Shown: positions 42,691-61,086 of the stretch, one piece after another
How positions within the stretch are numbered: position 1 is the first letter of the stretch
Layout: the number at the start of each line of letters is the position of its first letter
Assembly: GCA_002723385.1 (NCBI GenBank)
Contig: PBNY01000024.1
Span: 40,612 to 104,611, forward strand
Origin: Oceanospirillaceae bacterium
GTDB taxonomy: Bacteria > Pseudomonadota > Gammaproteobacteria > Pseudomonadales > Oceanobacteraceae
Reading direction: 5' to 3'
Length of the DNA: 64,000 bases
The notes under the pieces: generated by a model
The model's database searches: none
Told to the model about the DNA's origin: nothing
The model's input: only the letters and a program-made list of their open reading frames with translations
Position numbers and translations under genes: made by a program

Positions 42691-43065
42691 TCAGCTTTCC
42701 TGATCATTTACCTCAGGCGGTTTACGATCACGCATGGCTTCGGCAAGCTCGGCGTTGGTCGTTCCTTCCTGCATCGGCACTCGACGATGCAAGGCCGCTT
42801 TGACAATCATATAGGCCGATACCGGCGCGGTAATAAACAGGAACAGACTGATAACAATCTCCTGAATACTGAAACCGCGACCTTCCGCCACGTGCAAACA
42901 CATCGAAGCGATCAGAATACAGCCAATCCCCAACGTGGTCGTTTTGGTGGGGGCGTGCAAACGCGTGTACACATCCGGCAGTTTTACCATACCGACAGCA
43001 CCAATCAGCACAAACAGGCCACCCAGTACCAATAGAAAAGATGCGATCCATTCAAGCCAGGACAC
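42691..43065 (-). CDS. mrpG: Na+/H+ antiporter subunit MrpG
   Basis: Small subunit (124 residues, three membrane segments) of the multi-subunit Na+/H+ antiporter used for salt and pH tolerance. It has the family core GLFVLIGAVGMVKLPDVYTR near 16-35 followed by LHAPTKTTTLGIGCIL. The start is GTG, supported by AGGAGG just upstream. It is the last gene of mrpACDEFG. Confidence 0.92.
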   Translation of the reverse strand: MSWLEWIASFLLVLGGLFVLIGAVGMVKLPDVYTRLHAPTKTTTLGIGCILIASMCLHVAEGRGFSIQEIVISLFLFITAPVSAYMIVKAALHRRVPMQEGTTNAELAEAMRDRKPPEVNDQES

Positions 43066-43074
43066 AAGGGCCTC

Positions 43075-43344
43075 CTACTCAATAATGTCGCCACGCAACA
43101 GATACTTGGACAAGGCCGAGGTGCTGACAAAACCCAACATGGCAATCAGCAAGGCCGCTTCGTAATACAGCGAGGTCTGGAAATAAATGCCCAACAGCAC
43201 AATCAATGCAATGCAGTTGATGTACATGGTATCCAGGGCCAGAATCCGGTCGGTTACCGTAGGCCCGACAATCAGACGCCAGGCATTCAGAACCAGAGCC
43301 AGTCCCACCAGCACAGTGACACTTTGAAGTACGGTATCTAGCAT
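43075..43344 (-). CDS. mrpF: Na+/H+ antiporter subunit MrpF
   Basis: An 89-residue, three-segment membrane subunit with the typical WRLIVGPTVTDRILALDTM near 23-41, the conserved Asp-rich motif of MrpF. It overlaps the end of mrpE by 7 bases, and GGAGATATTTGC precedes its ATG. Acts only as part of the antiporter complex. Confidence 0.93.
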   Translation of the reverse strand: MLDTVLQSVTVLVGLALVLNAWRLIVGPTVTDRILALDTMYINCIALIVLLGIYFQTSLYYEAALLIAMLGFVSTSALSKYLLRGDIIE

Positions 43345-43826
43345 GCAAATATCTCCTTCAGTTCCACTTCGTAGCGCTGTTTGATCGACTCAATGACATC
43401 TTCTTCGGTCTTCATATGCAGTACGTGGATATAAAGCCACTTCATATCTTCTGAAAAATCGACGCTGACGGTTCCGGGTGTCAATGAAATGGTGCTGGCC
43501 AGTACCGCCAGAGGAAACTCGCCTTCCAGATCCAGAGGCAGTGCCACAATACCCGGACGCAAACTGGAGTTGGGTGAGAGTACCCGGATCGCGACCTCGA
43601 AATTGGACAGCAAGATATCCCACAGCACCACCAACAAATAGCGAATGGCCCGCAGCGGTTTTCTCACCTTGGGATGGTCATCGCTCATGGGAGCCACCAG
43701 CCAGCAAATACCAATGCTGAGTATCAGACCAAGTACCAGATGCCCAACACTGAAGTCATTCAGAAACAGCCATACCAGCGTCAGAATCACGGTATGAAAT
43801 GGCATGGGGAACAGACATTTGATCAT
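43338..43826 (-). CDS. mrpE: Na+/H+ antiporter subunit MrpE
   Basis: A 162-residue subunit with two N-terminal membrane segments and a cytoplasmic C-terminal domain. Recognisable are WDILLSNFEVAIRVL near 70-84 and the conserved STISLTPGTVSVDFSEDMKW near 112-131 with the following LYIHVLHM. Its start overlaps the mrpD stop in an ATGA. Confidence 0.93.
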   Translation of the reverse strand: MIKCLFPMPFHTVILTLVWLFLNDFSVGHLVLGLILSIGICWLVAPMSDDHPKVRKPLRAIRYLLVVLWDILLSNFEVAIRVLSPNSSLRPGIVALPLDLEGEFPLAVLASTISLTPGTVSVDFSEDMKWLYIHVLHMKTEEDVIESIKQRYEVELKEIFAC

Positions 43827-45331
43827 TTGCCACCTCCTGTCATCAGCGAGGAAGTATCAATTCCCTGAAAAAGACCGGTCGCCGAGCGCTCGGCAAATTC
43901 CGTCAGCCAACCCGCACCGATCACTAGCGCAACCAATGCCAAAACCAGCACAGAAATACCTGCCCATTGAAGCGGATGAACCACAGCCGTCCCCGCCTTG
44001 CCAGTGCGAGTCCGCCAGAACAAGGTGCTGCCAGCACGAGACAATGCAACCAGGGCAGCCAGGCTGGAGATCAACAAGGGAGGCCATATCCAGTCTGCCG
44101 AGCTGGCTTCCAGAGTGGCCTGCAACATCAGCGCCTTGCCGATAAAGCCAGACAGCGGTGGCATACCAATCAGGGCCAGAGCGGCAATGAAGAATACTCC
44201 ACCAATCAGGCCCGCTTGCGGCATCGCACGCGCCGATACGATACGGTCTTCAGCAGGGCCTCGGAGATTCACTACCAGACCGGCAATCAGGAAAATCAGA
44301 GCCGTCGCCAATGTACTGTGGATCAAATAGTAGAGTCCGGCACTGGTCGCACCGTGCGTTGCCGTCGCGACCATCAACAGCAGGCTGCCTACGGACACAA
44401 TCACCAGATTCGCCGCCAGACTTCTCAGGGTCTGACTGGCCATCACAGACACAATACCGAGCAGTAGCGTCAACCACGCGAGTGGCCATATCCACGGTTG
44501 GGCAATGTTCGCCAGACCTCCGGCATTTTCGCCGAAGACTCCCAGGTGAACTCGCCACAAGCTGTAAATACCCACCTTGGTCATGATCGCGAACAGAGCT
44601 GCAACCGGAGCAGGTGATGCGCTGTAGGCCTTCGGCAACCAGAATTGCAGCGGCAGCATCGCCGACTTGAGCCCGAATACCACTACCAGCAGCAGAGCGC
44701 CACTGCGTGCAAGGGTCAGGCTCCCACCTTCGATAGTCGGAGCCACTCGCGCCATATCGGCCATATTCAGTGTGCCAAAGGTTCCGTACAGGATACCCAG
44801 AGCAATCAGGAACAACGCCGAACCGGCCAGATTCAGAATCACGTAGTGAACATTGGCCGCTGTCTTCAGCTTGCCACCACCGTGTATCACCAGACCGTAG
44901 GAAGCGATCAAAAGTACTTCAAAGAACACGAACAGGTTGAATATATCGCCGGTCAGAAAAGCACCCTGAATACCCATCACCTGAAACATCAGCAATGGCT
45001 GGAAGAACGGGCCATGCTCATCTTCTCCAGAGCTGGCGTACAACTGCACTCCCAGAATCAAGACACTGGTCAACAGCAGCAAGATGGCGGACAAACGATC
45101 CACAACCATCAGAATGCCGAATGGAGGCAACCACTCACCAACGGCATACAAGTGAACGCCTGTGGTATCAACTTCAATCAATAACAGCACTGCGATGGCA
45201 ACCATTGCCACAGAGGCCAGCGTCCCCAGACCACGCCGTAATGCCTTGTTCTGGCTAAACGGCGGGATCAGCATCAAGGCACCCACAATCAGGGGAATGA
45301 GAATCGGCAGAACGGGTAAATGCGTCATCAT
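43823..45331 (-). CDS. mrpD: Na+/H+ antiporter subunit MrpD (complex I NuoN-like)
   Basis: One of the two large ion-translocating subunits, homologous to NuoL/M/N of respiratory complex I. The 502 residues hold about fourteen membrane segments. Landmarks are NLFVFFEVLLIASYGLVIHG near 129-148, KSAMLPLQFWLPKAYSASPA near 219-238 (with the channel lysine) and HSTLATALIFLIAG near 325. It overlaps mrpC and mrpE by 4 bases each. Confidence 0.94.
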   Translation of the reverse strand: MMTHLPVLPILIPLIVGALMLIPPFSQNKALRRGLGTLASVAMVAIAVLLLIEVDTTGVHLYAVGEWLPPFGILMVVDRLSAILLLLTSVLILGVQLYASSGEDEHGPFFQPLLMFQVMGIQGAFLTGDIFNLFVFFEVLLIASYGLVIHGGGKLKTAANVHYVILNLAGSALFLIALGILYGTFGTLNMADMARVAPTIEGGSLTLARSGALLLVVVFGLKSAMLPLQFWLPKAYSASPAPVAALFAIMTKVGIYSLWRVHLGVFGENAGGLANIAQPWIWPLAWLTLLLGIVSVMASQTLRSLAANLVIVSVGSLLLMVATATHGATSAGLYYLIHSTLATALIFLIAGLVVNLRGPAEDRIVSARAMPQAGLIGGVFFIAALALIGMPPLSGFIGKALMLQATLEASSADWIWPPLLISSLAALVALSRAGSTLFWRTRTGKAGTAVVHPLQWAGISVLVLALVALVIGAGWLTEFAERSATGLFQGIDTSSLMTGGGK

Positions 45332-45705
45332 CGCTTGTTCTCCTTGCGATGCTTGCGTTCAACCAGCTCATCAGTCGTAAGTGACGCTTCCCGACCATCA
45401 ACCTGGTCATTCCCCATGTCAGTTCTGGCACGAATCGCCAAAATGATCACAAAGGCTGTCATGGCAAAACCAATCACAATGGCCGTCAGCACCAATGCCT
45501 GCGGCAGTGGGTCAGAATAAGTGTCGGTGGTACCCAGAATGGCTGCACCGTTAATCACCAGACGGCCGCTGGCAAACAGAAACAGGTTGACCGCATACGA
45601 GAGCAACGTCAGCCCCAGAATCACGGGAAAGGTCTGGCCACGCAACATCAGGAACACACCCGCTCCGGTCAGGAAGCCAACGCCCAAAGCAAAACTGAAC
45701 TCCAT
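45328..45705 (-). CDS. mrpC: Na+/H+ antiporter subunit MrpC (NuoK-like)
   Basis: A 125-residue, three-segment subunit homologous to NuoK. It shows VILGLTLLSYAVNLFLFASG near 29-48 and PLPQALVLTAIVIGFAMTAF near 67-86, the diagnostic MrpC motif. Its ATG overlaps the mrpA stop (TAATG), and GGAGGT within the mrpA end serves as its ribosome binding site. Confidence 0.94.
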   Translation of the reverse strand: MEFSFALGVGFLTGAGVFLMLRGQTFPVILGLTLLSYAVNLFLFASGRLVINGAAILGTTDTYSDPLPQALVLTAIVIGFAMTAFVIILAIRARTDMGNDQVDGREASLTTDELVERKHRKENKR

Positions 45706-48506
45706 TATTCCTTACCTCCGCGCAGACGCAGGCGTTCCGATGTCGTCATCTTGCCGAGGTTGGCCAGAATCAGCAGGGTTGCACCAATCACGGTCAAATA
45801 CACTCCCAAGTCAAACACCATGGCACTGGCCAGCTCGAATTTGCCGATGCCAGGCAGGTAGAAATAGTCGTACCAGGTTTTCAGGAAGTTGAAGCCAAAC
45901 ACCCAGCTTCCAACCCCCGACAGGATTGCGATACACAGGCCACTGGCAATCAGGGCCTGATAATTGATCGGCATACGTTGCTTCATCCATTCCACACCGT
46001 GGGCAACGTATTGTTGAATCAGGGCAATGGCGGTGATCAAACCGGCGATGAAACCACCGCCCGGCATATTGTGACCGCGCAAGAAGATGTAGGCAGATAC
46101 CAGCAGCGCCAACGGCAGCAAACTCTGGGAAACCAGTGCCAACAGCACCGGGTGACTTTCTCGAGACCACGGAACACCATCACTGTTCGCTGTTGGCATC
46201 GCCAGCGTGATGCGCAGCAACAGTTTATAAATACCCAAGGCCGCGATCCCTAAAACGGTAATTTCACCCAGCGTATCGAAGCCACGGAAATCCACCAGAA
46301 TCACGTTCACCACGTTGGTACCACCACCGCCAGACTTGGAATTTTCCAGGAAGAAGTCGGAAATCGATTCGAGTGGCCGTGTCAGCATTGCATAGCAAAT
46401 CGTTCCTACCACACTGCCGAACAAGGTTGCCACCCCCAAATCTCTTACGATGACGCGCAACGGACTGTCGATAACCGGACTGTGCTGAGGCAAGAAGAAC
46501 AACGCCAACAGGAACAACAGAATGGTCACGACTTCAACCGATAGCTGGGTCAACGCCAGGTCAGGAGCAGAGAAATAGGCGAAGGTAATCGAGACAACCA
46601 GGCCCACAACGGACAACGCCAGCAGAGCACGCAAGCGCAGGTGACTCCACCAAACGGTCAGCAGCGTAGAGATGATCAATAAGCCGGTACAGAAGGTCAC
46701 AACCCAGTTGGTGGGTATCTGCGGTCGTGTACCTTCAACCGACGCCATGGTGAGCAACGGATACGAAACCATTGCCAACGATAGCAGCAACATCAGGAAC
46801 ATCGCTCGTTGCAACGAATCGCTGTCAAACCAGCGGTACAACACGCCCGCCTTCTGCACAATATCCTGGACAACACCTTCGAAAATCATCTTGGCATCGA
46901 TGTCGTTGAACTGCCCCTGGAAGTTAAACAAATGCTTCCGCTTGATATAAAGGAAAGAGCCGACAGTAATAGCCACGGCGCTCATCGCCAGCGGCACATT
47001 AAAGCCATGCCAGATGTGCAGATGGAATTCTGGCAGTTCAGTTTGCAGGACGGCTGAGGATGCTGCGTTGAGCAAGTCACCAATCACGAACTGCGGGAAG
47101 ATACCCACGACCAAACAGAGCACAACCAGTACTTCAACAGGGACACGCATATACCTGGGCGGCTCGTGCGGAGTTTTGGTCAGCCCAATCGGTTCACCGT
47201 TAAAGAACACGTCGTGCATAAAGCGCAGCGAGTATGCCACGGACAATGCCCCGCCAACGGTCGCCAACAACGGAATCCACCAGGACAATGCGCCCAGCGT
47301 GTACTGATTCAGAGTCTCGGCAAACATCATTTCTTTCGACAGGAAGCCGTTCAAGAGCGGAACGCCAGCCATCGAAGCCGCTGCAACCATCGCTAACGTC
47401 GCGGTCACAGGCATGTACTTCCACAATCCATTGAGCTTGCGCATATCACGAGTGCCGGACTCATGGTCAATGATCCCTGCTGCCATGAACAGGGAAGCCT
47501 TGAATATCGCATGGTTGATCACGTGAAAAACTGCCGCGATTGCAGCCAACTCGCTGCCTAAACCCAACAACAGGGTGATCAGACCCAAATGACTGATGGT
47601 CGAATAAGCCAGCAAGCCTTTGAGATCGTGTTTAAAGAGAGCCGTGTAAGCACCGACTAACAAGGTCGCCATCCCGGTCAGTGACACCACAATGAACCAG
47701 GCGTCCGTATCGGCCAGCAGTGGGAAAAAGCGTGCCATCAGAAATATACCGGCCTTCACCATAGTCGCCGAATGCAAGTAAGCGCTTACAGGCGTCGGTG
47801 CTGCCATGGCATGAGGGAGCCAGAAATGGAAGGGGAACTGGGCAGACTTGGTAAATGCCCCCAAAAGGAACAACACCAGAATGACGTAATAGTATCCGCT
47901 TTCATGAACCACATCAGACATTCCCAGCACTTCATCGAGCTGATACGTCCCGGTTACATGGCCTATCAGCAACAACGCACCAAGCAATGCCAGACCGCCG
48001 GCTCCCGTTATGGTCAGAGCCATACGCGCCCCTTTTCGGGCGTCCGAGCGATAGGACCAGAAGCTGATTAAGAGGAATGAGCTGATACTGGTCAGTTCCC
48101 AGAAAAACCACAGCTGGATCAGGTTATTGGAGAGCACGATGCCAAGCATGGCGACCATGAATAGCATCAGATAGGCATAGAAGCGACTCATGGAGTCCCG
48201 CTCTGACAGGTAATAGCGGGCATATAAAATGATTAAAAGGCCAATACCCAGAATCAGCAGCGCGAAGAGATAAGCAAGCCCGTCAAGGTGAAGCTGGATG
48301 TTCAGCCCCAGAACCGGAATCCATTCCATAGAGAATGTTCCAACCGTTCCGGAAAAAACCTCGGGGGTCTGTTTAAGAAGAATAACCAGCGCCGCGAAAG
48401 GCGCTAACGCTGTCGCCCAGGCGCAAGCAGTACGCCCAAATCTGGCAGCAAGCAAGGGAGACAGAATACCCAGGATGGGTAGAAGCAGTATCCAGAACAC
48501 ATTCAT
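45705..48506 (-). CDS. mrpA: Na+/H+ antiporter subunit MrpA fused to MrpB
   Basis: Largest subunit, 933 residues and NuoL-like. The core includes [20 protein letters not shown] and [20 protein letters not shown] (with conserved His and channel residues), then [20 protein letters not shown]. After the antiporter core, a MrpA-specific tail ([20 protein letters not shown]) is followed by a MrpB domain with [19 protein letters not shown] and [21 protein letters not shown]. No separate mrpB exists, so this is the fused 'group 2' arrangement known from Sinorhizobium pha and Pseudomonas operons. It heads the operon, with 228 bases to hemE. Confidence 0.94.
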
Positions 48507-49923: not shown

Positions 49924-52900
49924 CTAAGGTGCAGGTGTCAGCAAAACACCATCTGAGGAACCATCAAAAAACCCCTCAATTTCAATACCTTTAGTAACGC
50001 CATCTTCCTCGTAATCGACCCTGTAAAGCTGACCGTAACTTGGTAACCCAACATCAACCCCTTCATAAAGCTCTCCGAGGCTATTTGAAACCGGGCCATT
50101 GGCAGACCTTACAGTATAACCGTCACCAGTAATGGTCAGACTGGTTGTTAGAGCCGGCATGTTGCCGTTTTGGTCTTGTAAAAGTACGTAAAAAGTACCA
50201 CTAGTCACAAGATCAATATCTGACTGCTCCTCATAGCGAGTGCCGTTATATTCATACAACGTAACCACGGGCACAGTTGCAGTACTTTGTATGATTCTGA
50301 TCGAATCACGAACATGTACCAGTTCCTTACAGTGCCCTACAAGGTTAGTTCGCGCATATTCTATTAGTTTTTCACTACAAACAGCGCCCTGATAATACGC
50401 AGGAGAAGAGATATCGGTGTACTCCTGGTCATCATTAAAATCTGCAAAGAACTCTACGGGGTGACCTCCCTCCCGGTCCCGGTCTACCCGCCTATTATAA
50501 TTATCGTCTCTAAACACCTCAGGAAGAGAAACGAATGGCTCTGTTTCAGCGCCTTCCACGAAGTCTTCACCACGGAAGTCGAACTGTCCATTACCATTCT
50601 GATCGGTAAAACCTGCTTCACCAGTAGTGTATGCCGTAATGGTTGTCATACCCAGAACAGAAGTAATTCCATCAGACTCAAATCGTTCGTAGCAATAATC
50701 CTCAAAATCATTGGCAGATCCATCAACCGGGTAACCAGGGTCCGAAGGGTCTGTTGAAAATGATTGACAATTGGGCTCAATTTCATTGACTCGTCCCAAA
50801 GCCGGATCGTGTTTCCCTGGCCGAACACCTCCACTGACCCAAGTCACAGAGCAGCTGCCGTCCTCAGTCAAACAACTGGATGTAATGACCCCACTTTCAG
50901 CAGTGAAGTTAATTGCAGTCTGATCTGCTACAGGATTCTGGTACTGATCAGCAGCATGTACTGTTACCTCCACTTCAACTCCATTTTTGTCGTAAGCGCC
51001 CGGATTTCTTATGTCGACACTAATATCGAAGCTGTCTTGATCTGGCAGGCCACTCGTTACAGTAATAGGTTGTGAATCCGTCGCTATCTCCACTCCCTCA
51101 GAAGTCTTTGTTGAAGCCCTGATGGAAGTGACCGCATGGCTTGTACCTGAATTGACAATGACACTCACCTGACCATTTTCATCTGTAACACCAGAACTGG
51201 TCACATCACCACTACCCAAGGTAATACCTCCAGTGGTGTTGTTCAGCTTAAAATTCACCGACTGTCCAGCAATTGCTCCTCCGATTCGATCCATAACTTT
51301 GAAGGTAACAACCGACTGCTTAGGTAGCACCGCATCGCCAATATTTATTAATGATATGTATGTCTGTGAAACGCTCTCGAAAATTATCGTGCCAACTTCA
51401 ACAGGCTGGATGTAGATCACCCCCGTCACTACATCATCTGTAATCTTGGTTGCCAGTGCACCATTAACAACGGTGTACAGATCAGCACTGAAGTTATCGA
51501 ACAAACAGCCATTTGCCGTGTAGGTGAATCGAATTTCTCCAGAAGTCGTCGTTTTTTCTGATGCATCCAGAGTTGCAGTTCCGTCATCAACACAGCCAGA
51601 TTCAATTCGAACACCATACTGGGAACCAGTAATTAACGCATCGCCGTCATTGCCATCAACGATGTTGATTCTAATCAACATGGTTCCGCCAGCAGACAGC
51701 TTCAGAGAATCTTCTACAGTATCTGAATCAGGTAACGGATCCCCGTACTCTGATTGACGAGTTCCATTGACCAATAGCTCTTCATAGAAATCGTCATCAT
51801 CGTCGATAACACCAAGCTTTGGATCAGGTCCTTCTTCCACATGAATATCAGTCGTCAATACCGCAGCACAATCTCTGGTATGACCAAAGTCACAGCTTTG
51901 ATTGCGTTCATAAAGAATGACCGTGATGGTGTTCTTGCTGGTGTATCCCACATCTCCAGGATTTCCGACACTCAGACAACTATCAAGATCGGTGGTATAT
52001 CGAGTGCTTACCGTGCCCGTGTCCAGGGCTTGCCTTTCAACACTAAACGTTTCGTTACCACGACAGTTTGAACCCCATTCAACGATGTAATCAGAGCTAA
52101 CAACCAAAGCATTGGCTTCAAGCGGGTTGATCACCGTAACGGACAAATCTGTCTCCGATTCGCCAGACAATTCAAGATTGCCATCAACTTCACCTTCATT
52201 AAACGAAGAACCTGATCCGGTTCCAATCTTCGGCAATGCCGTCTCGATGGAAGATGAAGCCGTTGCCAAAGGTGTTGCTGAAGAAGGATCAGCATCCTTA
52301 TCAAACAACTTGACGGTAATTGTGTCTCCAGAAGAAGATGCACAGCTCAGATTTCTGTAGGTACTGGTAACGCTGTTAGATGAACTAACCGTCTCAGAGA
52401 TTGAGAACACATTGTCTACTGCAGGCATACAGCTTGACTCAAATGTATACAGATATTCATCTGTCAAATTCACATTCGAGTTATTCTTATCAACACCATT
52501 GACAGTGATAAGGATACTGCTTCCTACCAATACACTGTCAGTACTTAATTCCAGACGCCCCTCATAGAAGGCATTTCCAACACCGGAGCCCAGACCAGGG
52601 TTAGGTGTATCTCCGCCAGTTTCAAGCAAGGTCACGTTGAAAGTGAGACTGTCCAGCTCTTCGTCGTTCGCAGCCAGGTACAGGGTCGCGGTCACCACGC
52701 TGCTGGTACAGGTCGGTGCCGCAGCGCCAGTGCTGTAGCGGGTTTCAATCGCATTATCCAGGGTTTGCTCTACAACGCTGAACTTGATTTCATCCGCTCT
52801 TGTATCACCCGCACATATCACCGTTTCAGACCAACGCACCTCATATAAATTCGAGCTGATCGCGCTGTTGGCATTAAGAGGGTTCACGACGTCGGCGGTC

Positions 52901-55041
52901 AGGGTCGTTGCGTTGGTCCCGGTGATGGTGATCGCCTGGCTGGTCTCATCAAATTCGGCACCGGTGCCCGTACCCAGGATCGGCATGGTGGCGGTCAGGG
53001 TCGCTCTGGCGGTGACGTCCTTGACGTCGGTGCCTGTATCAAGATCCACCAGTTGGGCGATCAGAGTGATGTCACCGCTGGCGCATTCGGTGATCGATGG
53101 CGTGTAGCGGGTGCTGGCCAGGCCGGTGCTGCTGATCACTTCGCTGCGGCTGTAGCCATCGTTGTTGGCCGTGCCGTTACAGTCAGCCGTGAAGTTGAAC
53201 TGGTAGCGCTCGCTCAACAGGGCGTTCTGCGCGTCGGCGTCCACCAGGTTGACGCTGACGTCGATGCTCTCGCCCACCAGGACGTTGCTGGCGCTGAGGC
53301 TCAGTTCTTCGGGCAGGAAGTCATCGCCGCTGCCATTACCCAGTGCTGGATCCTCAACGTCTGAACTCACCGTCTCGAACGAGACTACTTGCTCGATTGA
53401 ATTCAGTTCAATGTCATTCCAAAACAGGGTAAGCGTAATAGTGTTACCACCCGGCTCCTCCTGGCAATCAACTTCGCTACCATCATATCGGGTTTCTATC
53501 AACCCCGAACCCAGGTGCTGGTTTTCAATACTGAATACCCCTTTCTCGCAAGACGACTTCCAACTCACTTCATATTCCGAAGAAGTGATCAAACTGTTCG
53601 AATCGAGAGGGTTGACAGCATTCGCAGTCAACGTTGTTTCAGTGACGTCGACCAGGCTTAGCTCACCACCGAACTGACCTTCCCGGAATGCAGAGCCGGA
53701 ACCAACACCCAGTTTGGGCAATGCAACATCAATTGTGGCAGAAGCTGCTGCCACCGCAGTCGCGCTATCCGGATCAGCGGCAGACTCATACACCCATAAC
53801 GTAATGGTGTCTGAGTCAACACAATTTACACCGGTAGGAGTGTATGCAGTGGTTACCTGGCCATCACTGTTGACTGTACTGGTCAATGTGAAGCTTGCCG
53901 TCGCCTCTGGCGCTTCGGTTTCTCCGTCAGGAATGGCAGGATTAGCGCATTCAGACCGGAAAACATATTGATAGTCGGATGCCAAAACGGTATTCGAATT
54001 GTTTTTGTCTACCAGGTCGCCACTGACGCTTAGGCTTGTCCCTGTCACTGTTCGCGAGCTGGATAATGTCAGCTGGCCTTCGCGAAAATCACCTCCGGTT
54101 CCCCTGCCGATGCTAGGCACGATTACAGCTCCACCGCTAGACGAAGAATTGACCTGAACGATAGTCGACGTAGTATCCAGGACTGTGCTCGGGTCACTAG
54201 TCAGTGTCAGAGTCAATGTAATGATGTTGTCGCCCGGACAATTCTCGATATCGGCATCGTAACGGGTTTGAATAGTCGGATTTGATAAGGACTGCGAGGG
54301 GATACTGAACCGTGATGACGATTCTGTTGGGCAATCTGAAGCCCAGGTTGCTGTATAAGCAGAAGACGTGACCTCTTCGTTCAAAGCCAATGGGTTAACA
54401 ACGTTAGCTGTTAACAATGTCTCGGAAACACCGACGAGACTGAGTTCTCCGTCAATCTGTCCATCCCGATAATCAACGCCATTACCAAAACCCAGCTGTG
54501 GTGCACTGGCCTGAACCGTTGCGGTTGCCGTCGCAAGAGGTGTTGCCGTTGTGACGTTGTCCGAAAAGTTAAAAAGCTGTGCTGTAATCGTATCAGTGCC
54601 GGTACAACCCGTGTTGGTATAGGTCGTAGATGCCTCACCGTCAGAACTGAAGGTTGCTGTCGTACTTAAAGTTGCTGTGGCAGGACTTGCCGATGAGCAA
54701 GTCGAACTGAAAGTGTACTGGTAGGTGCCATTGCTAAGAGCGCTGTTATTATCATTTTTATCAACGCCATCAACAGATACAGTTATTGAACCACCGGTAA
54801 GAACCGTTGACGAACTCAAGGTAAGCAACCCTGGTACGTGGCTACCATCAGCACCTGATCCCAAGCCTTCAGATACTGTAGCAGATCCAGTATCTGTCCC
54901 GGTGTCAGTACCAGTATCGGTACCAGTGTCGGTACCAGTGTCGGTACCCGTATCAGTACCAGTAACGGATGTCTCACCACCTCCGCAGGCGGAAAGAACC
55001 ATCGCCAGCAATAGAGTAGTAATCAGACCGGGTTTTAACAT
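49924..55041 (-). CDS. Giant modular lipoprotein with alternating A-B repeats and Big-like domains
   Basis: A 1705-residue protein of unknown function, predicted to be lipid-anchored at the cell surface or periplasm. The lipobox is LSACGGG (Cys19), followed by a (GTDT)6 spacer. Two module types alternate. A starts near residues 60, 310, 567 and 817 (G-x-G ... LSxxxVLxGxSIxVxVxxVDKNNxN). B starts near 180, 447, 689 and 935 (LSxVxxTxLTxxVVNPLxxNxxVxSS). Most modules have one or two cysteines. A diverged A-like unit begins near 1075, two Big/invasin-like Ig domains occupy about 1224-1420, and three EF-hand-like acidic loops follow near 1480-1550 (DQNGNGQFD, DDNYNRRVDRD, DFNDDQEYTD). ATG 55041 has AAGGGAG upstream; an open frame to 55227 overlaps gltD. 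An adhesin or matrix role is inference. Confidence 0.8.
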   Translation of the reverse strand: MLKPGLITTLLLAMVLSACGGGETSVTGTDTGTDTGTDTGTDTGTDTGTDTGSATVSEGLGSGADGSHVPGLLTLSSSTVLTGGSITVSVDGVDKNDNNSALSNGTYQYTFSSTCSSASPATATLSTTATFSSDGEASTTYTNTGCTGTDTITAQLFNFSDNVTTATPLATATATVQASAPQLGFGNGVDYRDGQIDGELSLVGVSETLLTANVVNPLALNEEVTSSAYTATWASDCPTESSSRFSIPSQSLSNPTIQTRYDADIENCPGDNIITLTLTLTSDPSTVLDTTSTIVQVNSSSSGGAVIVPSIGRGTGGDFREGQLTLSSSRTVTGTSLSVSGDLVDKNNSNTVLASDYQYVFRSECANPAIPDGETEAPEATASFTLTSTVNSDGQVTTAYTPTGVNCVDSDTITLWVYESAADPDSATAVAAASATIDVALPKLGVGSGSAFREGQFGGELSLVDVTETTLTANAVNPLDSNSLITSSEYEVSWKSSCEKGVFSIENQHLGSGLIETRYDGSEVDCQEEPGGNTITLTLFWNDIELNSIEQVVSFETVSSDVEDPALGNGSGDDFLPEELSLSASNVLVGESIDVSVNLVDADAQNALLSERYQFNFTADCNGTANNDGYSRSEVISSTGLASTRYTPSITECASGDITLIAQLVDLDTGTDVKDVTARATLTATMPILGTGTGAEFDETSQAITITGTNATTLTADVVNPLNANSAISSNLYEVRWSETVICAGDTRADEIKFSVVEQTLDNAIETRYSTGAAAPTCTSSVVTATLYLAANDEELDSLTFNVTLLETGGDTPNPGLGSGVGNAFYEGRLELSTDSVLVGSSILITVNGVDKNNSNVNLTDEYLYTFESSCMPAVDNVFSISETVSSSNSVTSTYRNLSCASSSGDTITVKLFDKDADPSSATPLATASSSIETALPKIGTGSGSSFNEGEVDGNLELSGESETDLSVTVINPLEANALVVSSDYIVEWGSNCRGNETFSVERQALDTGTVSTRYTTDLDSCLSVGNPGDVGYTSKNTITVILYERNQSCDFGHTRDCAAVLTTDIHVEEGPDPKLGVIDDDDDFYEELLVNGTRQSEYGDPLPDSDTVEDSLKLSAGGTMLIRINIVDGNDGDALITGSQYGVRIESGCVDDGTATLDASEKTTTSGEIRFTYTANGCLFDNFSADLYTVVNGALATKITDDVVTGVIYIQPVEVGTIIFESVSQTYISLINIGDAVLPKQSVVTFKVMDRIGGAIAGQSVNFKLNNTTGGITLGSGDVTSSGVTDENGQVSVIVNSGTSHAVTSIRASTKTSEGVEIATDSQPITVTSGLPDQDSFDISVDIRNPGAYDKNGVEVEVTVHAADQYQNPVADQTAINFTAESGVITSSCLTEDGSCSVTWVSGGVRPGKHDPALGRVNEIEPNCQSFSTDPSDPGYPVDGSANDFEDYCYERFESDGITSVLGMTTITAYTTGEAGFTDQNGNGQFDFRGEDFVEGAETEPFVSLPEVFRDDNYNRRVDRDREGGHPVEFFADFNDDQEYTDISSPAYYQGAVCSEKLIEYARTNLVGHCKELVHVRDSIRIIQSTATVPVVTLYEYNGTRYEEQSDIDLVTSGTFYVLLQDQNGNMPALTTSLTITGDGYTVRSANGPVSNSLGELYEGVDVGLPSYGQLYRVDYEEDGVTKGIEIEGFFDGSSDGVLLTPAP
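54890..54966 (-). repeat. 12-bp tandem repeats coding the (GTDT)6 spacer
   Basis: Units close to GACACTGGTACC (minus strand) repeat about six times with small third-position differences, directly after the lipid-anchor codons. Copy-number change would keep the frame and vary the surface spacer length. Confidence 0.85.
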
Positions 55042-55120
55042 GACGGCATGCTCCCTTGAGAAATTCCTGACACAGCTTATGGCACAGGAGAATATCACCT
55101 GAAGCCACTGCCAAGCCACC

Positions 55121-55149
55121 AACAAAAAACGCGGCAATAGCCGCGTTTT
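55121..55149 (-). terminator. Intrinsic terminator of the gltBD operon
   Basis: On the minus strand AAAACGCGGC-TATT-GCCGCGTTTT pairs over ten positions and runs into TTTTTTGTT. It separates gltD from the giant lipoprotein gene, so the latter is its own unit. Confidence 0.9.
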
Positions 55150-55177
55150 GTACCTTTCATCACAAAAATAAAGGTTT

Positions 55178-58947
<3,770 letters not shown>

Positions 58948-58956
58948 GACTTTATG

Positions 58957-61086
58957 CTAGCCCTTGCGAATGGCTTTACGGTAATTCTGCTGAGACTTCA
59001 GCGGATCTCCCAGCAATTCACCTGTGCGATGCAGATCCGTCAAAACACTGTAGGCCAACCAAGGGAAAATCGCGGTCGCACCAAAGCCCAACAGGACTGC
59101 GAAGTGGTGCGGATCACGAGCATCACCGGTTTCAACAATAATGTTGCCGTTGGTACGCAAACCTTTCTGAACCAGACGGTGATGTACAGCACCCGTTGCC
59201 ATCACGGATGGGATCAGCAACTGTTCCTGAGAGACGTCTTTGTCAGTCAGAATAAGAATCACACTGCCATCAATGATGGCCTGCTCGGCTTTATCAGCCA
59301 GATCAGTGATCGCATTCTGAAGACCACGCTCTGGATCAAACGCCAGTGACAGGACAACATGACGGAATTCAGCACTGTCAGCATTTTTCAAACCAACAAA
59401 CTTCAGCGGAGACAGCACAGGTGATGTCAGAATAATCCGCTTGGCATGATCTGCCGTTTGCTCGAATACGTTCTTTTCCGCACCAATACAGGTTTCCAAA
59501 GACATAACGATGGCTTCGCGCAGAGGATCAATCGGAGGATTGGTCACCTGAGCAAACTGCTGACGGAAGTAGTCGGCCATATGACGAACGCGACCCGACA
59601 AAACAGCCATTGGCGTATCATCACCCATGGACCCCGTTGCTTCCTGACCATCTTCGCCCATCGGGCGCAGAACCTGATCACGTTCTTCGTTAGTGATCAA
59701 ATGAAGCTTTTGCTGGGTCGCCAGCTCATCGCCACTGATTGGATCATCACCTACTTTTTTCAGGAACAGCTGACTTTCAATGCGAATCGCATTTTCACGT
59801 AGCCATTGCTTGTAAGGTTTTTCTGACTTCAGTGCGTTGTCGATGTCATCGGCCTGAAGCAGACGGCCCTCCTGAGTATCAATCGCCAGAATTTGACCAG
59901 GGCCAACACGGCCTTTGGACACCACGTCTTCCGGCTTGTAATCGTAGGTACCGATTTCAGAAGCGACAGTAATAAAGTTGTTTTTGGTAATCACCCAACG
60001 AGATGGACGAAGACCGTTGCGATCCAAACCACAAACAGCATAACGGCCATCGGTAATTACCAGACCGGCAGGTCCATCCCAAGGCTCCATATGCATGGAG
60101 TTGTACTCATAGAATGCGCGCAAATCGGCATCCATGGTCTCAACGTTTTGCCATGCCGGCGGAATCATCATGCGAATCGCACGGAACAGGCTCATACCGC
60201 CAGTCGTCAGCAACTCAAGCATGTTGTCCATGGAAGATGAATCGGAACCGGTGGTATTCACAACCGGTGAGATGTCTTCCAGATTGGGTAAAAGATCAGA
60301 AGAGAATTTCGATGCACGAGCGTTCGCCCAGTTGCGGTTCCCCTGAATGGTGTTGATTTCACCGTTGTGCGCCAACATACGGAAAGGCTGGGCCAATTTC
60401 CAACGCGGCATGGTATTGGTAGAGAAACGTTGGTGGAAAACACAAATCGCGGTTTCCATTCTCTCATCGCCCAGATCCAGATAGAAGTTAGGCAAATCGA
60501 CAGGCATCGTCAGTCCTTTGTATGAAAGAACTGATTCGGAAAGGCTGGCAATGTAAAAGTCCGGGTACGCTTCGAGCGCTTTTTCCGCAAACCGACGAGC
60601 ATAGAACAATTTGATACCAAACTCAGTCGAGTCCAGCTCAGATTCTGCGGTAATGAATACCTGCTCGAAACGCGGCAAACAATCCACGGCCATAGGACCA
60701 AGGCAATCATTGTTTGTTGGCACGGCTCGCCAACCCGCAACTTTCAGACCTTGTGCGGCCAATGCATTTTCAACCGCCGTTTTCTGGGTCTGGAAAACAT
60801 CATCATCCAAATCCATAAACAGCATGCCGACTGCATACTGATCGGGTAAATCAATACCAGCTTCCTTGCACACGGTGCGCAAGAAAGAATCTGGTTTCTG
60901 AAGCAACAAGCCACAGCCATCACCGGTTTTGCCATCCGCAGCAATACCGCCACGGTGCGTCATGCAGGTCAAGGATTGGATCGCTGTCGTCAACAGCTCA
61001 TGACTAGGCTCGCCTTCCAGATGGGCCAGCAAACCGAAGCCACAGTTGTCCTTGTAGTCGCCTGGAGTATACAGACCAGTTCTCAT
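58957..61086 (-). CDS. gltB: GltB N-terminal part: glutaminase and central domains
   Basis: The upstream 709 residues of glutamate synthase. The short propeptide ends before Cys15 in YKDNCGFG, the glutaminase nucleophile. The glutamine amidotransferase domain continues with [42 protein letters not shown] and [13 protein letters not shown] (to about 400). The central domain follows, with [17 protein letters not shown] and [18 protein letters not shown]. It ends [20 protein letters not shown] and NYRKAIRKG before the stop, so it lacks the FMN, Fe-S and C-terminal domains. On its own it could at most hydrolyse glutamine. The ATG at 61086 is the family start; a longer open frame to 61149 is not. 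Confidence 0.85.

Follow-up and report, generated by a model that had tools for sequence, protein, structure and literature searches.

The locus described here raises the question of whether a bacterium has lost or split its glutamate synthase, or whether an intact gene has been written wrongly in a draft genome. The window, that is the whole stretch of 64,000 nucleotides that was analysed (contig C24, 40612-104611), carries gltB on its minus strand, and direct reading of the sequence places an in-frame TAG at codon 710 of 1,483.

The interrupted gltB locus

The features that the argument depends on are the following.

61086-56638, minus strand: gltB as a whole, ATG at 61086, 1,483 codons with the terminal stop included
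58957..61086, minus strand: first piece of gltB, 709 aa plus stop; contains the glutaminase domain and the larger part of the central domain (Pfam PF00310, PF04898)
58957..58959, minus strand: TAG at codon 710, read directly; leucine in homologues
58939..58944, minus strand: codons 715-716, which encode Ala-Asn next to the stop and are private to the window; the homologues examined have Ser-Lys
56638..58947, minus strand: second piece of gltB, 769 aa if its start is the ATG at 58945-58947; Pfam PF04898 (tail), PF01645, PF01493
55178..56596, minus strand: gltD, small subunit, uninterrupted, adjoining gltB downstream (TIGR01318, 790 bits against a cut-off of 483)

On the minus strand the letters at the break read AAG GGC TAG CAT AAA GTC ATG. 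The initial annotation had described an in-frame amber codon splitting gltB into two ORFs that lie in one frame, 9 bases apart, and jointly make up 1,483 codons including the stop. Our reading agrees with this, as the first ORF ends at 58957 and the second starts at 58947. The frame around the TAG is otherwise open, with this one TAG in 1,515 codons. As the sequence stands, GltB is therefore not encoded as one uninterrupted chain.

The GATase_2, central, FMN/synthase and GXGXG domains are nevertheless all present in the order expected for GltB. The first piece matches GATase_2 and most of Glu_syn_central; the second contains the end of the central domain (the last 24 Glu_syn_central positions) followed by the FMN/synthase domain (Glu_synthase) and the GXGXG domain. 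Each piece on its own exceeds the cut-off of 1,047 bits for the family NF008730, the first with 1,130 bits over model positions 2-712 and the second with 1,445 bits over 717-1481. By this family cut-off, by the adjacent gltD and by sequence matches to PDB entries 1ea0, 2vdc, 6s6s and 7mfm, the gene resembles bacterial NADPH-dependent GltB, from which it differs in being broken after 709 codons and in the replacement of S715 and K716. The gltD gene had been annotated as intact, and its frame is indeed open throughout.

Beyond gltD lies a 1,767-aa ORF (49924-55227, minus strand) with no Pfam match. It contains a GTDT repeat that arises from a 12-base tandem array (54887-54968), and in six same-genus genomes the regions fetched near gltB contain a stretch with 43-53% identity to it.

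Private changes around the stop codon

We aligned the protein with 119 full-length homologues, 120 having been listed and one, the partial protein P0007 (1,288 aa), dropped. The stop replaces a leucine that is conserved in all 119, as had been proposed from the sequence of the locus. It does not stand alone, as two further private changes, S715A and K716N, place three such changes within seven codons. Altogether 560 columns are invariant across the 119 homologues, and the window departs from them at just these three positions and leaves the other 557 unchanged. When three columns were drawn at random from the 560 in 1,000,000 trials, a span of at most six codons was obtained 88 times. One further residue, A809, is also unseen in the homologue set, in a column that is itself variable.

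The single T-to-A change put forward in the initial annotation thus falls short as a full explanation. A single point mutation is ruled out by the two missense changes next to the stop, and the lesion is a cluster rather than one change. Since the leucine codon aligned to 710 is CTG in all six same-genus genomes, even the stop on its own may have taken more than one change.

The same positions were read in the DNA of relatives' loci. Codon 710 encodes leucine in 109 of 111 loci, methionine in one and isoleucine in one, as read with a pattern limited to L, M, I, V or stop at this codon, which matched 80 of 80 loci, 29 of 29 relatives' loci and two others. Codons 715 and 716 encode serine and lysine, respectively, in 111 of 111. 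The leucine and the Ser-Lys pair are present even in the ferredoxin-dependent enzyme 1llw.

A nearly identical, intact copy exists. P0121, which was compared as the representative of a cluster of 14 members, is an uninterrupted GltB of 1,482 aa encoded on another contig, 99% identical to the window's protein over 100% of its length. The longest contig for P0121 has 22,041 bases, against 104,611 for the contig of the window. Nine residues differ between the two proteins, three of which are the stop at L710, S715A and K716N.

The initial annotation had suggested that sibling strains be checked for the stop. We searched the draft together with 54 relatives from its genus, family and order. Every one of these 55 genomes gave a GltB match, and in none of the 54 relatives is the coding region of gltB interrupted by a stop. 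A seeming recurrence in relative G051 is a TAG that falls just ahead of the start codon. In G035 contig ends truncate the gene, and the GltB proteins of G041, G044 and G054 are distant forms with 41-55% identity. The closest named relatives of the protein include records from Oleibacter, Oceanobacter, Parathalassolituus, Thalassolituus and Bacterioplanoides.

The draft genome, its tRNAs and other odd residues

The draft, which appears to be metagenome-assembled, comprises 3.59 Mb in 104 contigs and is 90% complete; this number of contigs for 3.6 Mb would give little reason to assume very low coverage. The gene for ribosomal protein L2 had no match in the draft, and no tRNAs for Ala, Cys, Glu, Ile or Thr were called in it. 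The 28 tRNA hits correspond to 25 distinct tRNAs, 22 of which have a fully paired acceptor stem. Two of the 25 are initiator tRNA-Met with a mismatch in the first pair, which is expected in this tRNA.

The only tRNA-His detected in the draft (contig C23, 14700-14772; locus L111, 1498-1573) has three mismatches in its acceptor stem, as compared with none in any of 32 copies from 29 relatives' loci. ARAGORN misses the draft copy and calls tRNA-His in all nine relatives' loci tested. At positions 66, 67 and 69 the draft differs from the commonest base of the relatives, which is C at 66 (29 of 29), G at 67 (22, with A in 7) and C at 69 (27, with T in 2); these base counts are from 29 copies that exclude loci L190, L193 and L194, all three of which are included in the 32-copy stem count. 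As tRNA-His is essential to the cell, either the broken copy is a wrong sequence or the draft lacks an intact one. Two copies of tRNA-His are present in 3 of the 29 relatives' loci, and a second one could sit in the missing tenth of this genome. A 28-base match to tRNA-His on contig C9 was rejected, there being no tRNA gene at that site.

The remaining one of the 25, a copy of tRNA-Val(GAC) at the end of contig C70 (locus L106, 48-124), has two acceptor-stem mismatches, and three of its first four bases differ from those of the copy on contig C33. It is weak evidence of error and is perhaps a mis-join at the contig end.

We also considered rpoC as a second protein-coding cluster. Where most relatives read NVLQYF, the RpoC of the draft reads NVQQDF (locus L204, 8100-8108). 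Of the 43 genomes matched, 30 loci were read, one of them from the draft, and the tyrosine that is changed in Y796D is present in 29 of 29 relatives' loci. The other change, L794Q, also occurs in relative L251, a genome in one contig, which weakens rpoC as a clean second cluster and leaves it as weak evidence of error.

To what extent odd residues accumulate throughout the draft was assessed over 10,051 aligned columns from 26 ORFs, with five relatives for comparison (left out were G021 and G006, which nearly duplicates G002; in one other comparison G002 was dropped where G006 was present). Radical private residues are most numerous in the draft, with 74, followed among the six genomes by 54 in G004, 29 in G002 (28 of which fall in one ORF that resembles a paralogue match), 24 in G001, 21 in G003 and 18 in G005. 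Such residues form 12 close pairs in the draft and 7 in G004, and among the private changes in six ORFs of the rpo region, 23 of 89 in the draft and 16 of 75 in G004 are radical. A large genome-wide excess is not supported by these counts, G004 being the most divergent relative, and because the draft sits on a long branch the excess is at most mild support for error. No stops were found in the draft among the matches listed for ABC-transporter genes. If these departures are errors, they are patchy.

Explanations for the stop codon

We consider it most probable (roughly 0.6) that the gltB stop reflects local base errors in the draft, and that gltB is intact in the cell. A patch of wrong bases in the assembly would have created the TAG together with the two missense changes, and the living cell would make a full-length, ordinary glutamate synthase. 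Three observations jointly favor a local sequence error, namely the clustering of the three changes, the damaged tRNA-His of this draft and the intact, near-identical gltB elsewhere. The clusters in gltB and in tRNA-His would then both be sequencing or assembly errors. Base errors and misassemblies are described for draft and metagenome-assembled genomes (PMC10582259, PMC9661791), and the gltB patch has in common with them that it departs locally from an otherwise conserved sequence. If the stop is an error, it carries a small warning for draft genomes in general: where a core gene contains a nonsense codon, one should look for private changes nearby before drawing conclusions on metabolism. 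The initial annotation had left three options open, a wrong base call, loss of glutamate synthase, and an enzyme made as two chains or by readthrough. It is the first of these that we favor, the second keeps some weight, and the third found no positive support.

A real, clustered (multi-nucleotide) mutation that killed gltB, with glutamate obtained by another route or by import, is the main alternative, which we consider clearly less probable. The cluster could have arisen in one event, and the undecayed remainder of the gene fits a recent lesion. An old null allele is disfavored, since decay would be expected along the whole length and all other 557 invariant columns are kept. A templated event is unsupported, as the 30-base stretch around the patch has no other match in the draft at up to three mismatches that could have served as donor. 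Another glutamate route may exist in the form of two PF05088 (NAD-glutamate dehydrogenase type) genes in the draft (contig C82, locus L153, 2140-5868; contig C19, locus L152, 3021-5882), one of which is open with 1,242 aa and one of which runs off the contig end; five of six same-genus genomes have just one PF05088 match. The sole PF00208 match in the draft resembles tryptophan dehydrogenase, at a score under the cut-off of that family. In Streptomyces coelicolor a mutant with a frameshift in gltB could be isolated and grows, as described in PMC9282665, whereas Escherichia coli without both gdhA and gltB is described as auxotrophic in PMC6415869. Loss of the gene is possible on these grounds, but the draft has no other full-length GltB to make the stop harmless, its other two matches being FMN-domain proteins far under the family cut-off, and a GltB match is found in every one of the 54 relatives searched. 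The damaged tRNA-His may also point to error. If the lesion were real, loss or splitting of glutamate synthase would have taken place in a bacterium akin to Oceanobacter and Thalassolituus, going by the names of the closest protein hits, and neither was seen in any of the 54 relatives searched.

It is improbable that translation terminates at the TAG, starts again at the ATG nine bases on, and yields two pieces that assemble into an enzyme. Such an ATG is present in frame and both pieces keep their domains; separate ORFs that possibly encode single glutamate synthase domains are reported in Archaea (PMC8097209), and a GltB made of several chains would be shared with them if the sequence here is real. 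However, the methionine codon at this place is common to 32 of 111 relatives' loci, so it is not a new start made for re-starting. In contrast to the archaeal form, the gene order is that of bacterial gltBD and the cut lies within the central domain instead of at a domain border, PF04898 continuing across it; in the structure shown in PMC8097209 the central domain of the alpha subunit comprises residues 423-780. A fold predicted for residues 430-1140, read through the stop, places residue 710 in a helix (695-717). The confidence of this model is moderate (mean pLDDT 60.5, pTM 0.56), and the mean pLDDT falls from 82 over the ten residues that precede 710 to 65 over the ten from 710 onward. Each piece was also used to search a set of 5.8 billion clustered proteins, of which the 120 best-matching representatives were considered. 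Among these, no relative of 423-1,346 aa exceeded 88% identity to the second piece (the best was an 831-aa protein), no full-cover relative of the first piece exceeded 72% (partial-cover matches reached 83%), and no close relative of either piece has an equal split form. The same split was found in 0 of 54 relatives' genomes, and the matches listed in the literature search include no report of a split bacterial gltB. That a glutamate synthase has turned into a two-chain enzyme, its second chain starting from a former internal methionine and carrying Ala-Asn in place of an invariant Ser-Lys, strikes us as very improbable.

Least probable of all is readthrough of the TAG, whether by an amber suppressor tRNA or because the stop is leaky, which would give some full-length GltB. 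The frame is kept on both sides of the TAG, but readthrough leaves the neighboring S715A and K716N unexplained. A search for an amber suppressor, suggested in the initial annotation, gave no anticodon CUA among the 25 distinct tRNAs called, a set that lacks those for Ala, Cys, Glu, Ile and Thr and from which a suppressor may likewise be missing. Together with the cut through a predicted helix inside the central domain, the lack of an amber-decoding tRNA in this incomplete set makes both two chains and readthrough unlikely.

The window also contains monovalent cation/proton antiporter genes (42691-48506, minus strand). Two ORFs among them, 43078-43389 and 42694-43074, were considered as a second split gene and turned out to be ordinary antiporter subunits F and G, which lie in the same frame with one stop codon between them and are thus a natural look-alike of a split gene.
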